From: an uncultured bacterium
GTDB taxonomy: Bacteria > Bacteroidota > Bacteroidia > Bacteroidales > Bacteroidaceae
Assembly: GCA_946188155.1 (NCBI GenBank)
Contig: CAMHUC010000004.1
Span: 1-64,000 of the forward strand
DNA: 64,000 bases
Reading direction: 5' to 3'
Shown: one piece after another, positions 6,131-60,870 of the stretch
Position numbering within the stretch: the stretch's first letter is position 1
Layout of the letters: each line of letters begins with the position of its first letter
Notes under the pieces: generated by a model
Seen by the model: only the letters and a program-made list of their open reading frames with translations
Database searches by the model: none
What the model was told of the DNA's origin: nothing
Translations under genes and position numbers: made by a program

Positions 6131-7504
6131 CTACAGCTGTTCGGCATACCAGCCCCTGACGCGCTGATGGCGCCCGTAGGCGAAGTGGGCCGACTTCAGG
6201 GCCAGCGTGAGGGCTTTCAGGCTGGGCACGTCGGCCATCCTGACGTGCTCTCTGAGCACCTTCTGGATGTCGATGGCCCGCATGAAGTGCTCGGCATCGG
6301 GGTGGGCAGGCTTGAAGAACGACAGGAGCACCTCCTCGGGCGACGACTGGCGTTGGTAGGCCTGGTTGTGGTGTACAATCTCCGTCTCTTCCTCCTTGGT
6401 GTAGTGCCAGCGCTCACCGTGGCGCAGCTCGTGCAGTGCCTGGGCGTACATCTGGCGGTGGAGCCAGGGCGAGTCGGTGTCGATGGAGCCCGTCACCTCG
6501 CAGCACAGGTATCGGCGCGAGCCGCTGATGTCGCAGAGCGGCTCCAGGTCGTTGGTGGTGGCGATGAATGATGCCATGCGCGGGCGCAGCTCGTACTGGT
6601 CGCTGCGCATGCGGCGCGTCTGCACGTCCTTCTCGGTGAGCAGGCGCTTGATCTTGGCCTGCTCGCGGTCGGTCTTGGCGTTGTACTCGTCGATGTTCAC
6701 CAAGAGCATCCGGCAGAGCATGCGCTCCACCTGCTCGGCGGCGTCGAGCTTCACGTCGTCGATGTAGTACTCGCGCAGCTCGGGCGGCAGCAGCATTCGG
6801 CAGAAGGTGGACTTGTGGGTGCCCTGCTGTCCGATGAGCATGGGCACCACGGCGTTGCCATATTCGTGCGAGAGGTTGAGCCACTGGGCCACCACGGCCA
6901 GCAGCCAGCGGTGGAAGTGGTCGGGCCAGCGGTCGTAGGCCGTGGGCACGCGGCGCGCCGCCTGTCGGATGTGGTCGCAGCCGTCCCACGCCGGGCAGCT
7001 GTCGAGGAAGGCGGTCACGGGGTTGTACAGCGGCACGAGTGCGCTGCGCACATACAGCTCCACGTCGATGGACCACGCCACGCCCACCTGCTCCATCTGC
7101 TCGATGGCCATCTGCCGCAGCTTGCGGTCGGTGAGCGGTTGCCAGCTGCCGGCCTTTTCCTCTCCGAACGGAGCCTTCCCTTGGAAGAACGGAGCCTCCT
7201 CTTGGAAATTTGAAGGCTCCTCTTGGAAATTTGGAGCCTCCTTTTTGGCGAAAGGAGCCTTCTGTTGAGCGTAAGTAGCCTCCGCAGCACGGAGCGGGCG
7301 GTACTCTTCGGTCTGTTTCATCACATTGTAGCGCAATTCGTAGTTTTGTTCGAAGAACTTACGCACTCCCTGCACTATCCGGCGGCGCTCCTTGGTTGAG
7401 CTGTAGCCTTCGCCCGACGTCCTGGGAGTCGGTATGATGTTCCACAGGTCGATGATGTTCTTGATCACCACGCCTATTGTTTTCAGCATTTCTATCATCT
7501 TCAT
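6131..7504 (-). CDS. VirE/VapE-family P-loop protein
   Basis: VPMLIGQQGTHKSTFCRMLLP, LLVNIDEYNAK, FIATTNDLEPLCDISGSRRYLCCEVTG. Confidence 0.85.
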   Translation of the reverse strand: MKMIEMLKTIGVVIKNIIDLWNIIPTPRTSGEGYSSTKERRRIVQGVRKFFEQNYELRYNVMKQTEEYRPLRAAEATYAQQKAPFAKKEAPNFQEEPSNFQEEAPFFQGKAPFGEEKAGSWQPLTDRKLRQMAIEQMEQVGVAWSIDVELYVRSALVPLYNPVTAFLDSCPAWDGCDHIRQAARRVPTAYDRWPDHFHRWLLAVVAQWLNLSHEYGNAVVPMLIGQQGTHKSTFCRMLLPPELREYYIDDVKLDAAEQVERMLCRMLLVNIDEYNAKTDREQAKIKRLLTEKDVQTRRMRSDQYELRPRMASFIATTNDLEPLCDISGSRRYLCCEVTGSIDTDSPWLHRQMYAQALHELRHGERWHYTKEEETEIVHHNQAYQRQSSPEEVLLSFFKPAHPDAEHFMRAIDIQKVLREHVRMADVPSLKALTLALKSAHFAYGRHQRVRGWYAEQL

Positions 7505-28811: not shown

Positions 28812-28837
28812 ATACTACAACTATTATTTTTATTTAC

Positions 28838-28983
28838 AACTTCTTATTTTAACGACAACTTTGACAACTTCTTATTTTAACGACAACTTTGACAACTTTG
28901 ACAACTTCTTTTTAAACTACAACTTCTTATTTTAACTACAACTTTGACAACTTTGACAACTCTTTTTGTTTGACAACTTATTA
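28838..28983. repeat. downstream arm (relative to gene) of gacaactt word array flanking GxxExxY gene
   Basis: acaacttcttattttaacgacaactttgacaacttc... multiple gacaactt words. Confidence 0.85.
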
Positions 28984-29412
28984 AATGACTTGTTTTACCT
29001 TGCCATCGGTGCCAACAATTTCATTTCGCTGCTTATCAAGGAAATATCGTTCGATGACCGCAAACTTTGGAGAGAAATTCACCAAGATACCGCACGGACA
29101 TCCTAAAAGCCGCATGTAATTATACAACTGGGCCCTGTGATTGCTAACTATTTCGGCCACAGCCTTACACTCTATAATAATGTCTCCCTTGCACAGGAAG
29201 TCTATGCGATATTCGGCAGACATCTCACGGCCATGATACAACGGATGAAACTTTAGTTCACGTCTGAAAGGTATCCCACTCTCCTCCAACTGAATCTGAA
29301 GCCCCTCCTGATAGCAGTATTCATTGAGTCCTGCACCAAGTTCCTTGTGAACTTCATACAAAGCTCCTACCACATCATAAATATGTTCCTTATGTCTTGC
29401 TATATCAATCAT
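28981..29412 (-). CDS. GxxExxY family protein (PD-(D/E)XK superfamily-like)
   Basis: ALYEVHKELGAGLNEYCYQEGLQIQLEESGIPFRRE, DFLCKGDIIIECKAVAEI, HRAQLYNYMRLLG. Confidence 0.92.
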   Translation of the reverse strand: MIDIARHKEHIYDVVGALYEVHKELGAGLNEYCYQEGLQIQLEESGIPFRRELKFHPLYHGREMSAEYRIDFLCKGDIIIECKAVAEIVSNHRAQLYNYMRLLGCPCGILVNFSPKFAVIERYFLDKQRNEIVGTDGKVKQVI

Positions 29413-29429
29413 CTTATAATATGTCTATT

Positions 29430-29482
29430 AAAGTTGTCCTAATATTAAAAAGTTGTCTTAGTTGTCCAAGTTGTCGTTTTTA
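29430..29482. repeat. upstream arm of word array (inverted: aagttgtc) flanking GxxExxY gene
   Basis: aaagttgtcctaatattaaaaagttgtcttagttgtccaagttgtcg. Confidence 0.8.
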
Positions 29483-40613: not shown

Positions 40614-40837
40614 CTGACGGTTGTACTTCTTTTAGACGATTGTACGATTATACTTTCTTTTTAGACGGTTGTACGGTTGTACGATTATACCTTTTTTTAG
40701 ACGGTTGTACGGTTGTACGGTTGTACGATTTATATTCGTCAAAACGTCCATTCGTACATTCGTCTAAAAACGTCTATTCGTACATTCGTCTTAAAACATC
40801 TCGTCCTCTCGTCATAAAATCTCGTCAATTCGTCAGA
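40614..40837. repeat. mirrored 8-bp-period array (gtacggtt words, then inverted attcgtac words), no ORF inside
   Basis: ttagacggttgtacggttgtacgattatac ... cgtccattcgtacattcgtctaaaaacg, abutting rpsI stop codon. Confidence 0.85.
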
Positions 40838-44521: not shown

Positions 44522-44524
44522 CTC

Positions 44525-44917
44525 TTATCGCTCTTTTGAGGCTTCAAACCGGATTCCCTTGTAGAGCGCCGGACTACCCTTGCTGCTCTCCGGCAAGATA
44601 TGCAGACGCACGCCCTTGATATGCTCCCGGGGATTAAACTCCTCGGGAGCATCCACCTTGTCGCTCAGAATTTCCAGCTTCAACAGTCCCAGGCGGTCTA
44701 TACGAACCTTTTCTCCACGCCGCAGGTGCTGGTTGATGACGTTGATGAAGTCCGTCAGGATTCCACCGAGAGCCCCGGGCATCACACCGTTGAGCTTACC
44801 CACCTCATCAATGATGCTGGCGGTGTCGACCTCCCCTTGGGGATGGTCGGCTACCGCTTTATACCGGCCGAAGTTCTTCAGCGTCGGCTTGTTCTCTTTA
44901 ACAATTTTATATTTCAT
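44525..44917 (-). CDS. HU-like DNA-binding domain protein
   Basis: DTASIIDEVGKLNGVMPGALGGILTDFINVINQHLRRGEKVRIDRLGLLKLEI; next to VirE gene. Confidence 0.75.
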   Translation of the reverse strand: MKYKIVKENKPTLKNFGRYKAVADHPQGEVDTASIIDEVGKLNGVMPGALGGILTDFINVINQHLRRGEKVRIDRLGLLKLEILSDKVDAPEEFNPREHIKGVRLHILPESSKGSPALYKGIRFEASKER

Positions 44918-44937
44918 AACTCTGAAAATCGGAAAAT

Positions 44938-45016
44938 AGGTTGTAACGTTGTAACATCGCCCGTCTACAAAGGGCGTGCAACCTGTTTCGGAGGTTGTAA
45001 GGTTGTAACGAGGTTG
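44938..45016. repeat. 79-bp inverted repeat, arm next to virE-like stop
   Basis: aggttgtaacgttgtaacatcgcccgtctacaaagggcgtgcaacctgtttcggaggttgtaaggttgtaacgaggttg; 73/79 matches to reverse complement of 47285-47363 by hand. Confidence 0.95.
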
Positions 45017-47107
45017 CTACGCATACATCGCCACCAGATAGCGTCGCCCCTGACGACCTTTGCCCCGCTCAAACCCGTTGCGATGCAGGTAACTGCCTAA
45101 GAGTGTGGCGTTTGCGCGACTCTTCGGATCCATCTTCAGCCTCGTCAGGATTTCTGTCGGACTCAGCAGCAGCACTTCGTCATCACCCTGAGGTTTTCGG
45201 AAGTGGTCCTCAAAGATGGCAATCACGTTGGGCACTTCATAGTAGTCGGCATTCCGCTCGACGATCTGCCGCTCACGCTCACCCGTGAAGGCATATTCCT
45301 CGCCGCTCTCTATCTCACTGATAATCTGGGCATAGAGTTGCGGGTAGTCGATGGCGCGGTCGCCCTGGGTATCGGTGTCTATCACGCCCGTCACCTCTAC
45401 CACCATGTAGCGGCGCGAGCCCGACTCGTCCTTCAGCGGCACCAGCGAGTTGGTGGTGGCGCAGAAGGCGGCATAGCGCTGCTGCTGCTCGAACACGGTG
45501 GAGTACATCTTGCGCTCCTTCACGTCGGTGCGCTGGATGAGGTGCTTCAGGAAGGCCGTTTGCGCCTTAGATATCTGGTCGTACTCATCGATGTTGATCA
45601 GCAGGAATCGGCTCAGCGCCCTGAGGGCCTCCTTCTTGTTGGCGAAGTCGATGCGGTCGATGTAGAAGGGCATCAGCTCGCGGGGCAGGAGCATGCGCAT
45701 GAAGGTCGACTTGCGGGTGCCCTGCCCGCCGACGAGCATGAGCACCATCTGTGCGCCGTACATCGCGTCGCGCCCCGAGCGCCACTGGCTCACCATCGAG
45801 CGCATCCACACCTTGAAGTTGTCGCGCCAGCCGGGAGTCTCGGTCCTCACGCGGTCGGCCAGCTCGCCCAGGCGGTCGCGGCCGTCCCACTGGGGCAACC
45901 GGTCGAGCCACTCGCGCACGGGGTCGTACTCGCTGATGCGCTCGGAGACGAGGATGCGCTCCAGGTCCTGCGGCCACACCTTGATGCCCTCGCGGATGGC
46001 GGCGTTGTTGATGTCGTTCTTGATCTCAGGGGTCAGCGGGCGCCAGTCCAGCTGGTAGCGGTCCTTCTCCTGATAGTCGATGTCGCCCGTCACGCGGTTC
46101 CGGCGGAACATATAGCGCCGTTTCAGGAAGGCCTCCAGCAGCTGCTGGTGCATCAGGCTCCTGTCCAGCGGGCTGGCCGTGCCCAGGCGATGGCCCTGAT
46201 AGGCATTCTCGAAGCAGGAGCGCACCAGCGTCTCCTTGTCGCCCCAGTCGCCCAGATAGATGGTCATCTTCACGGCCAGTTCCTGGTCGATGCCGGCCTT
46301 CCGGCACTCGGCGGCCAGCAGCAGCAGGTGCTCGTCGGGCTGGCGATGGCGGTCGAAGGCCAGCTGGCGGCAGATGGCGTTGTAGTTCGTGATGTCCATC
46401 TCCCGGCGGGTGTAGCCTGGCAGCACCTCGGTGTCGAGTGCCGGCTCCGACTGGCGTCCGAGGACTCCGGCAGTGGCGTCCGTGAGCGGCTCTGTGGGCT
46501 GGCTCATCTCGATGGCCTTCGCAGCGGGGTTCAGCCAGGCCTGCGGGTCGTGGGAGATGCGGAATCCCTCGCTGCCGTCGTGCAGGACTTCCTCAGGACG
46601 GATGCCCGTGGACTGGAATACATACTCCGATGCCCGCTTGTAGGCATACTGCTGGAACAGAGCCACTTGCCGAGGCTCCTCGGGCAGCCCGCCGCCAGGC
46701 AGGCAGTATGGTATGAGCACCTTCAGTGACCGTCCGCTGCTGCCCACAAACGACATCAGCGTCTGTTCCCACACGTTCACCATCCGCCGCAGCTGTTCAA
46801 GCCGCTCCAGCCCGTCGTCTACACGGAGCGACAGCAGCACCAGGCCCGTCGGGGCCCCCTTGTCGCTCTCGGCAGGCCGGATGCGGGGCAGGTCGGCCGC
46901 CGCCAGTGGCCCCGAGGCCAGGCCAAAGCCCGTCGAGACTGCGGCGTGGCCGCGCACAGCCTCTACGCGTTGCGCATACTTGCCGCTGCGGGTCCAGTCG
47001 AGGATCTCGTTCAGCGTCACTCCCTTCTCTTTCCGCTCCCGGCGGTAGAGATACTCCATCATAAGTCTTGTATTGCCTGTCATCATGCTTGTAGTAATAC
47101 TATCCAA
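45017..47107 (-). CDS. VirE/VapE-family protein with BT4734-like (primase-related) N-terminal region
   Basis: VLMLVGGQGTRKSTFMRMLLPRELMPFYIDR, LINIDEYDQISK, FCATTNSLVPLKDESGSRRYMVVEVTG. Confidence 0.88.
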   Translation of the reverse strand: MDSITTSMMTGNTRLMMEYLYRRERKEKGVTLNEILDWTRSGKYAQRVEAVRGHAAVSTGFGLASGPLAAADLPRIRPAESDKGAPTGLVLLSLRVDDGLERLEQLRRMVNVWEQTLMSFVGSSGRSLKVLIPYCLPGGGLPEEPRQVALFQQYAYKRASEYVFQSTGIRPEEVLHDGSEGFRISHDPQAWLNPAAKAIEMSQPTEPLTDATAGVLGRQSEPALDTEVLPGYTRREMDITNYNAICRQLAFDRHRQPDEHLLLLAAECRKAGIDQELAVKMTIYLGDWGDKETLVRSCFENAYQGHRLGTASPLDRSLMHQQLLEAFLKRRYMFRRNRVTGDIDYQEKDRYQLDWRPLTPEIKNDINNAAIREGIKVWPQDLERILVSERISEYDPVREWLDRLPQWDGRDRLGELADRVRTETPGWRDNFKVWMRSMVSQWRSGRDAMYGAQMVLMLVGGQGTRKSTFMRMLLPRELMPFYIDRIDFANKKEALRALSRFLLINIDEYDQISKAQTAFLKHLIQRTDVKERKMYSTVFEQQQRYAAFCATTNSLVPLKDESGSRRYMVVEVTGVIDTDTQGDRAIDYPQLYAQIISEIESGEEYAFTGERERQIVERNADYYEVPNVIAIFEDHFRKPQGDDEVLLLSPTEILTRLKMDPKSRANATLLGSYLHRNGFERGKGRQGRRYLVAMYA

Positions 47108-47284
47108 TCTCTATGCTGCAAATACTATGCCACTTTCAGATGGCAGAAGTCACCTATTGCCCCAATTTACTAGTAAATTCAGACATCAGGAGGCTTCTGA
47201 CATCTCTCAGCACGCTCTTCATAGAAGCGGGAAGCCTTGCAGGAACTGACAGAAAGTCGCTGTCACCCGTCTGCCAACATGTCA

Positions 47285-47363
47285 CAACCTCGTTACAACC
47301 TCACAACCTCCAAAACAGGTTGCACGCCCTTTGCTGCAGGGCGATGTTACAACGTTACAACCT
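47285..47363. repeat. 79-bp inverted repeat, arm upstream of virE-like gene
   Basis: See 44938-45016. Confidence 0.95.
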
Positions 47364-47499
47364 GTAAAGCAAAAAAAAGAATAAGCATAGCCGTCAACAG
47401 TATCGAACATAAAAGTGGATGCGTCACCAAAGGCGCATCTTCTTTTTTTGCTGTTTCAGGTTCTGGTTTCATGAATTTTGACTACCTTTGCACCCTGTT

Positions 47500-48930
47500 A
47501 TGATGATACTTCTGACAGTATTGGCGTATTTCGCCATCCTCTTCGGCATCAGCCGCCTTACCAGCAGGCGAGCCGACAACAATACGTTCTACCGCGCCAA
47601 CCGCCGCGCACCATGGTATATGGTGGCCTTCGGCATGGTGGGGGCCAGCATCTCGGGCGTGACGTTCGTCAGCGTGCCGGGCATGGTGCTGACGTCGCAG
47701 ATGACCTATCTGCAGATGTGTCTGGGCTTCATCGTGGGCTATCTGGTGATAGCCTTCGTGCTGCTGCCGCTCTACTACCGGCTGAACCTGACCACCATCT
47801 ACGGTTATCTGGGGCAGCGGTTGGGCGAACGCAGCTATCTGACGGGGGCCTCGTTCTTCCTGCTGTCGAAGATGACGGGGGCAGCCGTGAGGTTCTATGT
47901 CGTCTGCATCATCCTGCAGCAGTTCGTGTTCGAGCCCGCCGGCATACCGTTTATTGTTAATGTGGTGCTGATGGTGCTGCTCATCTGGCTCTACACGCGG
48001 CGTGGCGGCATCGGCACGCTGGTGTTCACCGACTCCTTCCAGACGCTCTGCCTGTTTACGGCCCTCATCCTGATTATCTTCGAGGTGATCAGCCAGCTGC
48101 GGTTCTCCCCAGGCGATGCCATCGACGCCATCGCTGCCAGCGGGATGAGCCGTGTGTTCGTGTTCGACGACTGTCTCTCGCCCCAGAACTTCTGGAAACA
48201 GTTCCTCAGCGGTGCCTTCATCGCCATCGTGATGACGGGGCTCGACCAGGACATGATGCAGAAGAACCTGACCTGCAAGAGTCTCAAGGACGCACAGAAG
48301 GACATGTGTACTTACGGCGTGGCCTTTGTGCCGGCCAACCTGCTGTTCCTCTCGCTTGGCGTGCTGCTGGCCATGTACTTCGGCGATGAGACTGCCACGA
48401 TGAAGGGCGACACGCTGCTGCCCGCCTTTGTAGAGCGCGGAGCGATTCTTCACTCTTCACTCTTCACTCTTCACTTGTTCATCATCGGCATCGTGGCAGC
48501 CTCGTTCTCCAGTGCCGACTCTGCGCTGACTTCGCTCACCACCAGCTTCTGTGTGGACATCCGCCGCAGGCCCGACGACGAGCGGCTGCGCAAGCGGACG
48601 CACGTCGCGATGTGCCTCTTCTTCGTGATGTTCATCCTGTTGTTCCGCGCCGTCAACTCCACGTCGCTCATCGATGCCATCTACACGATAGCCAGCTATA
48701 CCTACGGCCCGCTGCTGGGTCTCTTCACCTTCGGGCTGTGTACCCGCCACAGGCCCATCGACGCTTGCGTACCTTATATATGTATAGCCTCCCCCATCGT
48801 CTGCTACGCCCTCGATGCCGCCGCCCAATACCTCTGGGGCTATCGCTTCGGCTACGAGCTGCTGATGCTCAACGGGCTGCTCACCTTCGGCGGCCTATGG
48901 CTGTGCAGCCGACATCGTGCTACTGTTTAG
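47500..48930 (+). CDS. sodium:solute symporter family transporter
   Basis: RRADNNTFYRANRRAPWYMVAFGMVGASISGVTFVSVPGMV; TACCTTTG box upstream. Confidence 0.9.
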   Translation: MMILLTVLAYFAILFGISRLTSRRADNNTFYRANRRAPWYMVAFGMVGASISGVTFVSVPGMVLTSQMTYLQMCLGFIVGYLVIAFVLLPLYYRLNLTTIYGYLGQRLGERSYLTGASFFLLSKMTGAAVRFYVVCIILQQFVFEPAGIPFIVNVVLMVLLIWLYTRRGGIGTLVFTDSFQTLCLFTALILIIFEVISQLRFSPGDAIDAIAASGMSRVFVFDDCLSPQNFWKQFLSGAFIAIVMTGLDQDMMQKNLTCKSLKDAQKDMCTYGVAFVPANLLFLSLGVLLAMYFGDETATMKGDTLLPAFVERGAILHSSLFTLHLFIIGIVAASFSSADSALTSLTTSFCVDIRRRPDDERLRKRTHVAMCLFFVMFILLFRAVNSTSLIDAIYTIASYTYGPLLGLFTFGLCTRHRPIDACVPYICIASPIVCYALDAAAQYLWGYRFGYELLMLNGLLTFGGLWLCSRHRATV

Positions 48931-53187: not shown

Positions 53188-53400
53188 TTAGACGAATGTA
53201 CGAATAAACGTTTTTACGGAAGATGTAGTTTTAGACGAATGTACGAATAAACGTTTTTTCGGAAGATGTAGTTTTAGACGAATGTACGAATAAACGTTTT
53301 TCGGAAGATGTAGTTTTAGACGAATGTACGAATAAACGTTTTTACGGAAGATGTAGTTTTAGACGAATGTACGAATAGACGATTTTACGGATAATATAGA
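53188..53400. repeat. five ~43-bp direct units (ttagacgaatgtacgaataaacgtttttacggaagatgtag)
   Basis: ttagacg starts at 53188, 53231, 53274, 53316, 53359. Confidence 0.95.
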
Positions 53401-53410
53401 CAGCACGAAT

Positions 53411-53791
53411 ATGGAGAACAAGGAGTTGATAGACTTGATTGCTGAGTGTGCAAAGAATGTACGAAAACAATTGGCAGCCGGCTACGAAGAGAAGATATAT
53501 AAGAATGCGATGTATATCGAGATGAAGAAGAATGGTATCCTGGTGGAAACGGAAGTACCCTTTAAGGTCTACTATGATGGCGTCATTGTTGGTGAATACC
53601 GTGCAGACCTGGTTGCCGACCATAAGGTCATCGTTGAATTGAAGGCTGTCAATGCCCTTGTTAAATACCATTCCGTGCAACTTGTCAACTATCTGACCGC
53701 CACAGGTCTCGATGATGGAATCCTCATCAACTTCGGAGCAGAGAGACTGGAGATTATCCCCAAGACTCGCCTCTACTATAAGCGTCTATAG
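53411..53791 (+). CDS. GxxExxY family protein (PD-(D/E)XK superfamily-like)
   Basis: AGYEEKIYKNAMYIEMKKNGILVETEVPFKVYYDGVIVGEYRADLVADHKVIVELKAVNAL. Confidence 0.9.
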   Translation: MENKELIDLIAECAKNVRKQLAAGYEEKIYKNAMYIEMKKNGILVETEVPFKVYYDGVIVGEYRADLVADHKVIVELKAVNALVKYHSVQLVNYLTATGLDDGILINFGAERLEIIPKTRLYYKRL

Positions 53792-53950
53792 AACCGTTCA
53801 TTCGTACATCCGTCTAAAAAAATCCGTTCATTCGTACACCCGTCTAAAAAAAACGTTCATCCGTACAACCGTCAAAAGAAATCGTTCATTCGTACACCCG
53901 TCTAAAATAAACTTTTATCAGTACATCCGTCAAACAGTACACCCGTCAAA
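53792..53950. repeat. inverted-orientation arm of the same word family (cgttcattcgtacacccgtctaaaa)
   Basis: Reverse complement ttttagacgggtgtacgaatgaacg mirrors the upstream units. Confidence 0.92.
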
Positions 53951-56033: not shown

Positions 56034-57122
56034 TCAGCTGTTCTTCTTGTAGCTCTGAACGGCCCAGGTAGCCATGAAGAGTCCGATGGCGAGGAGGGCC
56101 AGCACCTGATGGGCCACGTCGCGAAGGCCGCCGCCACGGATGAACACGGTGCGGATGGCATCGATGAAGTAGTGCATCGGGTTGACGTAGGTGGTCAGGT
56201 AGGCCCAGTCGGGCATGGAGCGGGTGGGCGTGAAGAGTCCGCTGAGCAGCATGATGCAGACGATGAAGAACCACATGACGAACATGGCCTGCTGCATGGT
56301 GTCGCTGTAGTTGGAGACGATGAGGCCGAAGGAGGAGAAGAACAGTGCCAGCAGCATGGCGAGCAGGTAGACGAGCCAGAGCGGTCCGTCGGGAGCGAGG
56401 CCGTAGATGAGCCAGGCCAGCAGTAGGCATACGGTGACCACGAAGAGGGCGATGAGCCAGTAGGGTATGAGCTTCGACAGGATGAAGGCCCACTTCGATA
56501 CGGGTGTGACGTTGATTTGCTCGATGGTGCCTGCCTCCTTCTCGCCCACGATGTTGAGCGTAGGCAGGAATCCCGTCATCAGCATCATCACGATGGCCAG
56601 CAGGGCGGGAATCATGTAGAGCTTGTAGTTCTGGTGAGGGTTGTAGAGGAGTGAAGAGTGAAGAGTGAAGAGTGAAGAATTTGCTGCCGCCGCAGTTGGG
56701 AGGGCGGCAGCGAATTCTTCATTTAAGATCTGCGAGAGATAGGCCGAGCCCATTGAGCCCTTGGTGCCGTTGACGGCGTTGGCGGCGATGAGATACTGGC
56801 CGTCGCGGATCTCCAGGATGATGTCGGCCCGGCCGTTCTCGATGTCCTTCATGGCCTCGGCGTAAGTGGCTTTTTGGCCGTTGAAGATGAAGTAGCTGCT
56901 GGCGGCTATCTTGCCGACCAGCCGCTGCGACTCGACGGTATGGTCGATGTCGACAACGTCGACACGGATGTTCTTCACCTCCATATTCATGACCCACGGC
57001 ATGACGCACATAATCATAATCGGGAATATGATGATGAGCCGTGGCAGAAAGGCATTGCGGCGAATCTGCAGGAATTCCTTTTGAATCAAATATTTTATCA
57101 TTGCATTCTTTTCTTTCGTCAT
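56034..57122 (-). CDS. ABC-2 type transporter permease
   Basis: EFLQIRRNAFLPRLIIIFPIMIMCVMPWVMNMEVKNIRVDVVDID; GEKEAGTIEQINVTPVSKWAFILSKLIPY. Confidence 0.92.
   Translation of the reverse strand: MTKEKNAMIKYLIQKEFLQIRRNAFLPRLIIIFPIMIMCVMPWVMNMEVKNIRVDVVDIDHTVESQRLVGKIAASSYFIFNGQKATYAEAMKDIENGRADIILEIRDGQYLIAANAVNGTKGSMGSAYLSQILNEEFAAALPTAAAANSSLFTLHSSLLYNPHQNYKLYMIPALLAIVMMLMTGFLPTLNIVGEKEAGTIEQINVTPVSKWAFILSKLIPYWLIALFVVTVCLLLAWLIYGLAPDGPLWLVYLLAMLLALFFSSFGLIVSNYSDTMQQAMFVMWFFIVCIMLLSGLFTPTRSMPDWAYLTTYVNPMHYFIDAIRTVFIRGGGLRDVAHQVLALLAIGLFMATWAVQSYKKNS
56651..56720. repeat. gtgaaga (7-bp period) array plus 15-bp-arm hairpin inside permease CDS
   Basis: gtgaagagtgaagagtgaagagtgaagaatttgctgccgcc-gcagttgggag-ggcggcagcgaattcttc. 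Confidence 0.9.
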
Positions 57123-57195: not shown

Positions 57196-58335
57196 TCACT
57201 CCAGCCTCGTCCTGAACTTCTTCAGTGCGACGGTGAGCAGCAGGGCGGTCATGGCGGCGAGTACGGCGACCTCCTTCATCACCTCACTGATGCCCACGCC
57301 CATGATCATCAGCTTGCGCATGGCGTCGATATAGTAGCGGGGCGGCACCACGGCAGCTATCCACTGCAGCACCTGTGGCATCGACTCCACGGGGAACATC
57401 ATGCCCGAGAGCATCACCACGGGCATGAGCAGCACCATCGCCGAGAGGAGCAGGGCCACGAGCTGCGTCTGGGCGACGTTGGAGATGAGCAGACCCAGCG
57501 AGAGGGCCAGTAAAATATATAAGGTGGAGATGGCGACAATCCAGAACAGCGAGCCGGCGAGGGGCACGCCGAGCACGTAGCGGGCCATCATCAGGATGAC
57601 GATGAGGATGGCGAAGGCCAGCACCAGATAGGGCACGGCCTTGGCAATGATCACTATCAGCGGCCGCACGGGCGATACGAGCAGCACCTCCATCGTGCCC
57701 CGCTCCTTCTCGCGGACAATTGAGATGGAGGTCATCATGGCGCAGATGAGCATCAGCAGCATGCCCATGATGGCCGGCACGAAGTTGTAGGCCGACTTCA
57801 TCTGGGGGTTGTAGAGAAGTGAAGAGTGAAGAGTGAAGAGTGAAGAAGGTTTATTCACTCTTAACTCTTCACTTAAAATGGTCTGCTGCGCATAGGTAGT
57901 CCACTGCTGGGCCATGTTGGGGTCGGAGCCGTCGACGATTAGCTGCAGCCCGCTCTTACGGCTGGCGAAGTCGCTGGCGAACACCACGGCCATGTCGGCC
58001 TGCTGGCTGCGGATGAGCCGCTCGGCCTGGCGTGGGGTGCCTACGGTGGCGGTGATGGTGAAGTACTCCGACTGCGCGAGTCGCTCCACGGCCTGCTGCG
58101 TCTGATGGTCCATCTGTGAGGTGACCACCACCGTCCGCACGTTCTTCACGTCGGTGGTGATGGCGAAGCCGAAGAGGAGCATCATCACCACCGGCATGCC
58201 GAAGAGAATGAGCATCGTGCGCTTGTCGCGCAGGATGTGCTTGGCTTCTTTGATGACAAACGAGAGGAAAGGCCCACCCAAGCCCTCCCAAAGGGAGGGA
58301 TGTTTGGTTACATTTTCTACAGCTTTATCACTCAT
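57196..58335 (-). CDS. ABC-2 type transporter permease
   Basis: FVIKEAKHILRDKRTMLILFGMPVVMMLLFGFAITTDVKNVRTVVV; VREKERGTMEVLLVSPVRPL. Confidence 0.92.
   Translation of the reverse strand: MSDKAVENVTKHPSLWEGLGGPFLSFVIKEAKHILRDKRTMLILFGMPVVMMLLFGFAITTDVKNVRTVVVTSQMDHQTQQAVERLAQSEYFTITATVGTPRQAERLIRSQQADMAVVFASDFASRKSGLQLIVDGSDPNMAQQWTTYAQQTILSEELRVNKPSSLFTLHSSLLYNPQMKSAYNFVPAIMGMLLMLICAMMTSISIVREKERGTMEVLLVSPVRPLIVIIAKAVPYLVLAFAILIVILMMARYVLGVPLAGSLFWIVAISTLYILLALSLGLLISNVAQTQLVALLLSAMVLLMPVVMLSGMMFPVESMPQVLQWIAAVVPPRYYIDAMRKLMIMGVGISEVMKEVAVLAAMTALLLTVALKKFRTRLE
57815..57876. repeat. gtgaaga 7-bp-period array, mirrored by actcttcac, inside permease CDS
   Basis: gaagtgaagagtgaagagtgaagagtgaagaaggtttattcactcttaactcttcactt. 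Confidence 0.9.
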
Positions 58336-59889: not shown

Positions 59890-59937
59890 TGCGGTAGCAA
59901 ATTCTTCACTCTTCACTCTTCATTCTTCACTCTTCAC

Positions 59938-60870
59938 TTAAAACTTGGCTTCCCCGTACATACCTATCTTTATATATCCGTCGTTCCTGACGGCTATCTT
60001 CACGGCATACACCAGGTCGGCCCGCTCGTCGTCGGTCAGGATGGTCTTGGGCGTGAACTCCGAGCGCGATGAGATCCACGATACCGTGCCCTCATACTCC
60101 TTCTTCTGCTGGTCGCCGTAGTCGGCGAACACCTTCACCCGCTGGCCCAGCTTGACGGTCTGCAGCTGGGCCGAGGTGACGTAGGCCCGCAGATACATGT
60201 CCTGCGTGTCGGCCACCTTGAACAGCGGCTTGCCCACAGCCACGAACTCGCCACGCTCCACGTATTTCTCCAAGACGGTGCCCCGGGTGGGCGCGGTGAC
60301 GTGGCACTTGCGGAGCATATCCCGCAGCTGGCTCACCTGCACATCGGCAGCGGCGGTCTGCTTGTCGAGGGCGCGGGTGCTCGTGGTGAGCGAGGAGATC
60401 TGTGCGTCCAACTGCTTCTGCAGCACCTGCACCTGGCTCGACGCGTCGTCGAGCATCTTCGAGGGAGCCGCACCGTCGGCCACCAGCTCGCGGTAGCGCT
60501 GCTCCTCCTGCCGCGCCTTGGCCAGCTGCTGGCGCGTGGCGGCTATCTGCCGCTCCATGTCGGGCTTCTGGCTCTGATACACCTCCTTCGTGGCCCCCAG
60601 CTGCTGTATCTTCAGCCACGTCTGGGTGGTGTCTATCAGGCCCACCTCCTGGTCCTGGCCGATGCTGTCGCCCTCGTTGACGCTGAACGTCAGCAGGGCT
60701 CCGCTCTGCTCTGCGAACACGGTGGTCTCCGTGGCCTCAAATGTGCCGGTGGCATCATACGCTTTCTCACTCCCTCCGCAGGCGGCCAATAAAGGCAAAA
60801 GGGCAAAAAGGCAGAAGGGTAAGACACCTGCTCCCGTTTCCCGAACCATTGAAATCATTACTTTTCTCAT
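59938..60870 (-). CDS. HlyD/membrane-fusion-family lipoprotein
   Basis: LPLLAACGGSEKAYDATGTFEATETTVFAEQSGALLTFSVNEGDSIGQDQEVGLID; VTAPTRGTVLEKYVERGEFVAVGKPLFKVAD. Confidence 0.92.
   Translation of the reverse strand: MRKVMISMVRETGAGVLPFCLFALLPLLAACGGSEKAYDATGTFEATETTVFAEQSGALLTFSVNEGDSIGQDQEVGLIDTTQTWLKIQQLGATKEVYQSQKPDMERQIAATRQQLAKARQEEQRYRELVADGAAPSKMLDDASSQVQVLQKQLDAQISSLTTSTRALDKQTAAADVQVSQLRDMLRKCHVTAPTRGTVLEKYVERGEFVAVGKPLFKVADTQDMYLRAYVTSAQLQTVKLGQRVKVFADYGDQQKKEYEGTVSWISSRSEFTPKTILTDDERADLVYAVKIAVRNDGYIKIGMYGEAKF

Follow-up and report, generated by a model that had tools for sequence, protein, structure and literature searches.

The VirE gene of the window (the whole 64,000-nucleotide stretch analysed here) is flanked by two inverted iteron arrays, and comparison across genomes places this locus in a widespread family of mobile initiator modules that are bounded by iterons and have gene-less derivatives. 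The arm architecture, the dispersal of the arms, the origin of short units by internal deletion, the diversity of contexts, the association with VirE and the co-variation of iterons all emerge from this comparison. The reading we favour, with a little more than even confidence, is that of a small mobile module: an initiator-like VirE placed between two inverted iteron arrays, with an HU protein as downstream partner, spreading through replication started by VirE.

The two 79-nt arms (Table 1) are complementary at 73 of 79 positions (92%) and stand 2268 nt apart. They form by far the top inverted repeat of the region, scoring 116 bits in an inverted-repeat search, with a maximum of 41.9 in 60 triplet-shuffled controls. 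The preliminary description of this DNA had reported the same pair; its coordinates and identity were reproduced, and the ggttgtaa words and the cgccc...gggcg hairpin that it read in the arms are both present. The stop-side arm ends at 45016, and the TAG of VirE, a minus-strand gene, ends at 45017, the base adjoining the inner edge of the arm, so the arm abuts the stop codon as described. The likely start of VirE is an internal ATG near 47086, matching the start of its relatives. VirE is the sole gene recognised between the arms, where Pfam and NCBIfam detected no transposase or integrase domain, in agreement with the earlier reading. The HU gene does lie outside the repeat pair, 20 bp beyond the stop-side arm and with its stop 3 bp ahead of the MATE start, yet it is apparently part of the moving DNA.

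Table 1. Features of the VirE module and its immediate surroundings (positions in the window).
Feature	Positions	Strand	Remarks
Insert between MATE and SSF genes (approximate)	44522..47470		Right end uncertain by tens of bp; relatives occur without the insert
HU-HIG DNA-binding protein gene	44525..44917	-	Pfam HU-HIG, E=1e-12; outside the arms, within the inserted DNA
Stop-side arm, 79 bp	44938..45016		Five direct iterons (ACAACCT type), one inverted iteron, small hairpin
VirE	45017..47107	-	BT4734-like N-terminal domain (PrimPol-type), VapE-like helicase, C-terminal domain with winged-helix-like pattern
Leader, start-side arm to VirE	47108..47284	-	Kept in short derivatives; short unit L009 aligns here
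Palindrome AATTTACTAGTAAATT in leader	47164..47179		Also in cores of short units
Start-side arm, 79 bp	47285..47363		Inverted copy of the stop-side arm
Putative terminator-like hairpin and T run	47418..47449	+	Read from the sequence; inside the insert, outside the arm

Other repeats occur in the window. GxxExxY genes at 28981–29412 (minus strand) and 53411–53791 (plus strand), within 28836–29480 and 53188–53934, lie between mirrored arrays of short words of the GACAACTT and ACGAATGTACGAA types, and similar words without a gene are found at 40636–40835. The likeness of these loci to the VirE module is one of geometry only. Short tandem arrays of the heptamer TCTTCAC (or its complement) occur at 48447–48475, 56649–56678, 57818–57846 and 59903–59938, and one of the four lies in frame within the SSF symporter gene. 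The window has another VapE-like gene (6131–7504), shorter at 457 aa and lacking inverted arms; over the helicase its identity to VirE is 39%.

A search for the arm alone, one of the checks suggested in the preliminary description, returned 29 matches in the window's own genome, far from a single pair, and most of them fall in short non-coding units. Such a unit consists of an arm, about 200–290 bp without a gene and an inverted arm, and carries the palindrome AATTTACTAGTAAATT as in the VirE leader; palindromes were found in the leaders of 17 of 39 modules, compared with 1.75 in shuffles. Ten short units are complete (362–447 bp), and several more are interrupted by contig ends. The 23 short units examined, from two genomes, all lie between genes, and Rfam recognised no known RNA family in the units. 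The alignment of one short unit, L009, joins positions 1–287 of the VirE unit (84%) to positions 2332–2426 (93%) with 2,044 bp gone; read in this way, L009 arose from the VirE unit by internal deletion.

An ordinary MITE-type family, moved in trans by an unseen transposase or another enzyme, would show the same anatomy: inverted ends, derivatives shortened by internal deletion, intergenic positions, tens of copies and short units that end near the arms. VirE would then be a passenger in an early copy, its internal deletions giving rise to the short units. We consider this unlikely, though it deserves serious attention. All modules examined lack a transposase, and no target duplication was seen either, as the preliminary description had noted at the window's locus: 19 two-armed units share no more flanking words than mismatched pairs do. 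Target duplication is also missing in some IS families.

Mobility of the module is well supported by comparison of its surroundings. Only six of 820 locus pairs have a flanking gene in common within 3 kb of flank; the preliminary description had held that fixed neighbours at a single orthologous locus would speak against mobility, and the loci do not show this pattern. At the window's site, the MATE and SSF genes are adjacent without the element in six of 11 relatives, divergent and 53–88 bp apart, and in the relatives without the element HU is absent between them; by this comparison HU is part of the inserted DNA here. Two modules with different neighbours, L152 and L153, match at 96% identity along 2.9 kb that starts at the outer edge of the arm and stops close to the HU end. 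HU seems to travel with the mobile unit despite its place beyond the arms, so the full-length unit does not simply run from arm to arm; what is conserved is arm–VirE–arm–HU, about 2.9 kb.

Among the short units, the two genes flanking L016 are adjacent in genome G123 without the unit, and the intergenic sequence there is not alignable. Both empty sites (MATE–SSF and L016), of the kind that the preliminary description advised looking for, hold at the level of gene order and not of single bases. In the close pair G428/G452 the search for an empty site at base precision found none: copies are shared, the assembly is broken at the element or the site was not found. The joined flanks of the L153 module likewise matched no empty site. 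The same short unit occupies the same site in these two close species (L222 in G452, L231 in G428), so some copies are older than the G452/G428 split.

The arms could alternatively be operators or an origin serving VirE at a fixed place, with the dispersed copies being immobile chromosomal sequences, for example binding sites of VirE and HU. The arms are under constraint, the examined short units are without exception intergenic and HU is a conserved partner, all of which suits such a regulatory or housekeeping role. We nevertheless regard it as improbable: deletion in the VirE unit gave rise to the short units, contexts vary between genomes and orthologous gene pairs occur without the element. 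The same three observations uphold the mobile reading proposed in the preliminary description.

The module is not confined to the window's genome. A scan of species genomes across Prevotellaceae yielded 41 VirE loci with 56–72% identity, 39 of them with the start side intact. Arms of 80–111 bp are present at 38 of these 39, and in the 38 modules the arm begins no more than 30 bp from the VirE stop, save one at +52 bp and one with a frameshifted gene. The sole exception (L168 of genome G034) has kept its start-side arm, and its stop-side arm has shrunk to one iteron. HU lies just beyond the arm at 35 of the 41 VirE loci. In genome G163, for instance, VirE has 87-bp arms that are 99% identical, HU follows directly, and a 367-bp short unit carries the same arm type.

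When aligned, the arms share one order of elements: three iterons, an A-rich loop, an inverted iteron, a conserved CATCGGCGTT-like block and two further iterons, giving five direct iterons and one inverted iteron per arm. Modules differ in their iteron word (TGTCACCCT, TGACAACCT, TGTCAGTCT and TTACAACCT, among others), and the inverted iteron follows suit. Direct and inverted iterons co-vary within arms, with 189 matches as against a mean of 65.6 and a maximum of 102 in shuffles that keep relatedness in. Mean arm identity is 88% within a module and 62% between modules. At several loci among L178–L186 a putative Bacteroidetes-type promoter (TTG, then TAnnTTTG) is located just upstream of the start-side arm, so VirE transcripts of this clade would begin with the arm.

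The distribution of arms was followed with a covariance model built from the arm, which was used to search genomes. Arms were found in all 35 searched genomes with VirE modules, at 2–51 per genome. Within the window's genus (36 genomes), there are 29 matches in G000, 40 in G034, 2–6 in three others and none in 31; VirE of the window's clade occurs in that genus only in G000 and G034. The dispersed copies of G034 are one-armed, like its present VirE unit. More than two arms occur in 34 of 36 genomes with VirE compared with two of 34 without it (p=5e-15, indicative only, as species are not independent and drafts are incomplete). A few genomes have arms but no VirE, which counts against the favoured reading. 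That arms track VirE across genomes speaks against a MITE-type family with VirE as passenger; the association of VirE with short units would, however, also be expected if the units merely descended from the VirE unit and another enzyme moved them.

The arm words themselves point to VirE. Iteron distance correlates with VirE distance (r=0.50). Among five VirE domains tested, the C-terminal domain alone contributes beyond the others to this link with iteron type (partial r=0.20, p=0.008); the signal is weak, though it sits where one would expect it. The C-terminal domain of SaPI Rep reads iterons directly downstream of its gene (PMC7581432). The stop-side arm occupies the position of the SaPI origin, and arm words grow more alike the more closely the VirE proteins are related; on both grounds VirE is probably what drives the module. 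It likely binds the arms, for which the co-variation of iterons gives indirect support. The preliminary description had treated VirE as a primase- or P-loop-type cargo; the class of gene stands, refined to a VapE-like helicase with a BT4734-like domain, and a cargo role is unlikely.

Structural relatives agree with an initiator-like protein. The best solved relative by sequence is SaPI PriRep1 (7pds; E=4.5e-6), and a fold search with the predicted VirE model (mean pLDDT 74, pTM 0.43) placed 7pds at the top, followed by other primase-polymerases. PADLOC gave PrimPol-type matches only. The Walker A motif of VirE is intact; LLSLRV is found where DxD is expected, and the acidic residues of active PrimPol domains look replaced when inspected by eye. 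No HUH or HUH Y1 transposase domain was detected in VirE by Pfam or by the fold search.

With a SaPI initiator as the closest structural match and wider VapE relatives in phage and plasmid records, the locus might be thought the remnant of an integrated plasmid, phage or satellite, with VirE, the origin and HU as its leftover replication module. We find this very improbable. Every plasmid or phage match falls short of 60% identity, viral contigs yielded no member of the VirE clade, and no integrase, relaxase or capsid gene accompanies the module, whose conservation extends from arm to HU over some 2.9 kb. Tens of short copies also misfit a remnant.

The pattern recurs with other VapE genes. 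Unrelated 158-bp arms enclose a VapE gene of the closed genome G024 that shares 30% identity with VirE, and the 40 matches to these arms include one VapE unit, 13 short units (781–1126 bp) and about eight solo arms, a form that the preliminary description had suggested looking for. The G024 short units keep the arms and part of the leader, several with a piece of the VapE 3′ end, and semi-conserved sequence beyond their ends could reflect longer ends or a target preference. Four loci of this genome (L062–L065) were set aside as belonging to a larger, different repeat; they are ~95%-identical copies of a several-kb cluster with a 693-aa VapE gene. An inverted repeat begins at or near the stop codon in further VapE lineages (L072, L039, L044 and L047) and brackets the VapE gene less tightly in L066. 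A BT4734 gene of Bacteroides finegoldii TSDC17.2 has 60-bp arms with the word CTGACAATA, starting 13 bp past its stop. Many of the VapE genes compared are without any inverted repeat. A DUF6078 gene precedes the VapE or BT4734 gene both in G024 (L068, 3441–3893, inside the arms) and in Parabacteroides distasonis (L289, 1652–2092). The presence of a VapE-type protein between arms in every lineage seen, with arm sequences that are independent, is a further argument against an ordinary MITE-type family.

For the replicating VirE module we propose the following course of events. VirE would use its C-terminal domain to assemble on the iterons, in the manner of SaPI initiators at the origin 3′ of their gene, and would then open the DNA and start local replication. 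Host end-joining or recombination would insert the extra copies at new intergenic sites. Gene-less short units, with their arms and central palindrome, could be copied by VirE in trans, as MITEs are by IS elements or REPINs by RAYT, and HU may act as an accessory factor or partner of the module. Replication as the copying step, joining by the host and the role of HU are what we infer. We know of no strand-joining activity of VirE, which counts against this replication-and-joining model.

In Helitrons and IS91, a replication initiator is thought to be involved in spread, and an HUH nuclease is used; the HUH Rep nuclease is absent from the VirE module according to Pfam and the fold search. SaPI PriRep/Rep proteins, and also Cch2 of SCCmec (PMC7581432), resemble VirE in the VapE-like self-loading helicase fold (7pds) and in having iterons directly 3′ of the gene. 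The VirE module differs from them by a second inverted iteron array upstream and by gene-less arrays scattered over the chromosome, and, unlike SaPI/PICI elements, it has no integrase, att sites or phage-interference genes and conserves arm–VirE–arm–HU only. REPIN/RAYT systems (PMC3116915) likewise have one protein gene per genome flanked by its repeats, with dispersed inverted pairs and solo copies matching the resident gene. VirE, however, is of primase-helicase type and not an HUH Y1 transposase, and its arrays measure ~80–160 bp, whereas REPIN palindromes are 20–40 bp long. IS elements with MITEs, such as BrickBuilt of Porphyromonas (PMC4596501), share terminal inverted repeats, internal deletion derivatives and intergenic copies; the VirE module lacks a transposase and target duplication, and HU travels along outside its repeats. 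PINSR of Prevotella intermedia (PMC4755523), compared by description only, is also amplified, non-coding and intergenic with no known mobiliser, and is without terminal inverted repeats, as are the one-armed G034 copies.

Our search of the open-access literature found nothing relevant on VapE or VirE with inverted repeats. We regard the module as categorically new on two grounds, that it departs from each known family in the defining feature of that family and that this search was empty; its mechanism is a proposal. Tentatively, and with slightly less than even confidence, we suggest a class of transposase-free mobile DNA in which an initiator starts replication at the iterons of both ends and so spreads its own origin arrays, and gene-less derivatives of them, to new chromosomal sites; HU would be an accessory protein, and the iteron word would be specific to each lineage.

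Known types of transposase normally account for dispersed repeats in bacteria. In these Prevotella-type gut bacteria, it is an initiator-like primase-helicase whose presence follows a repeat family through tens of genomes. The idea is directly testable, as both the protein and a candidate site of ~80 bp are known. If it is true, one group among the BT4734/VapE genes, which are abundant but unexplained in Bacteroidota, would acquire a function, and Bacteroidota chromosomes would carry tens of potential initiator-binding sites. If VirE does spread these repeats, DNA replication itself can serve as a transposition mechanism.
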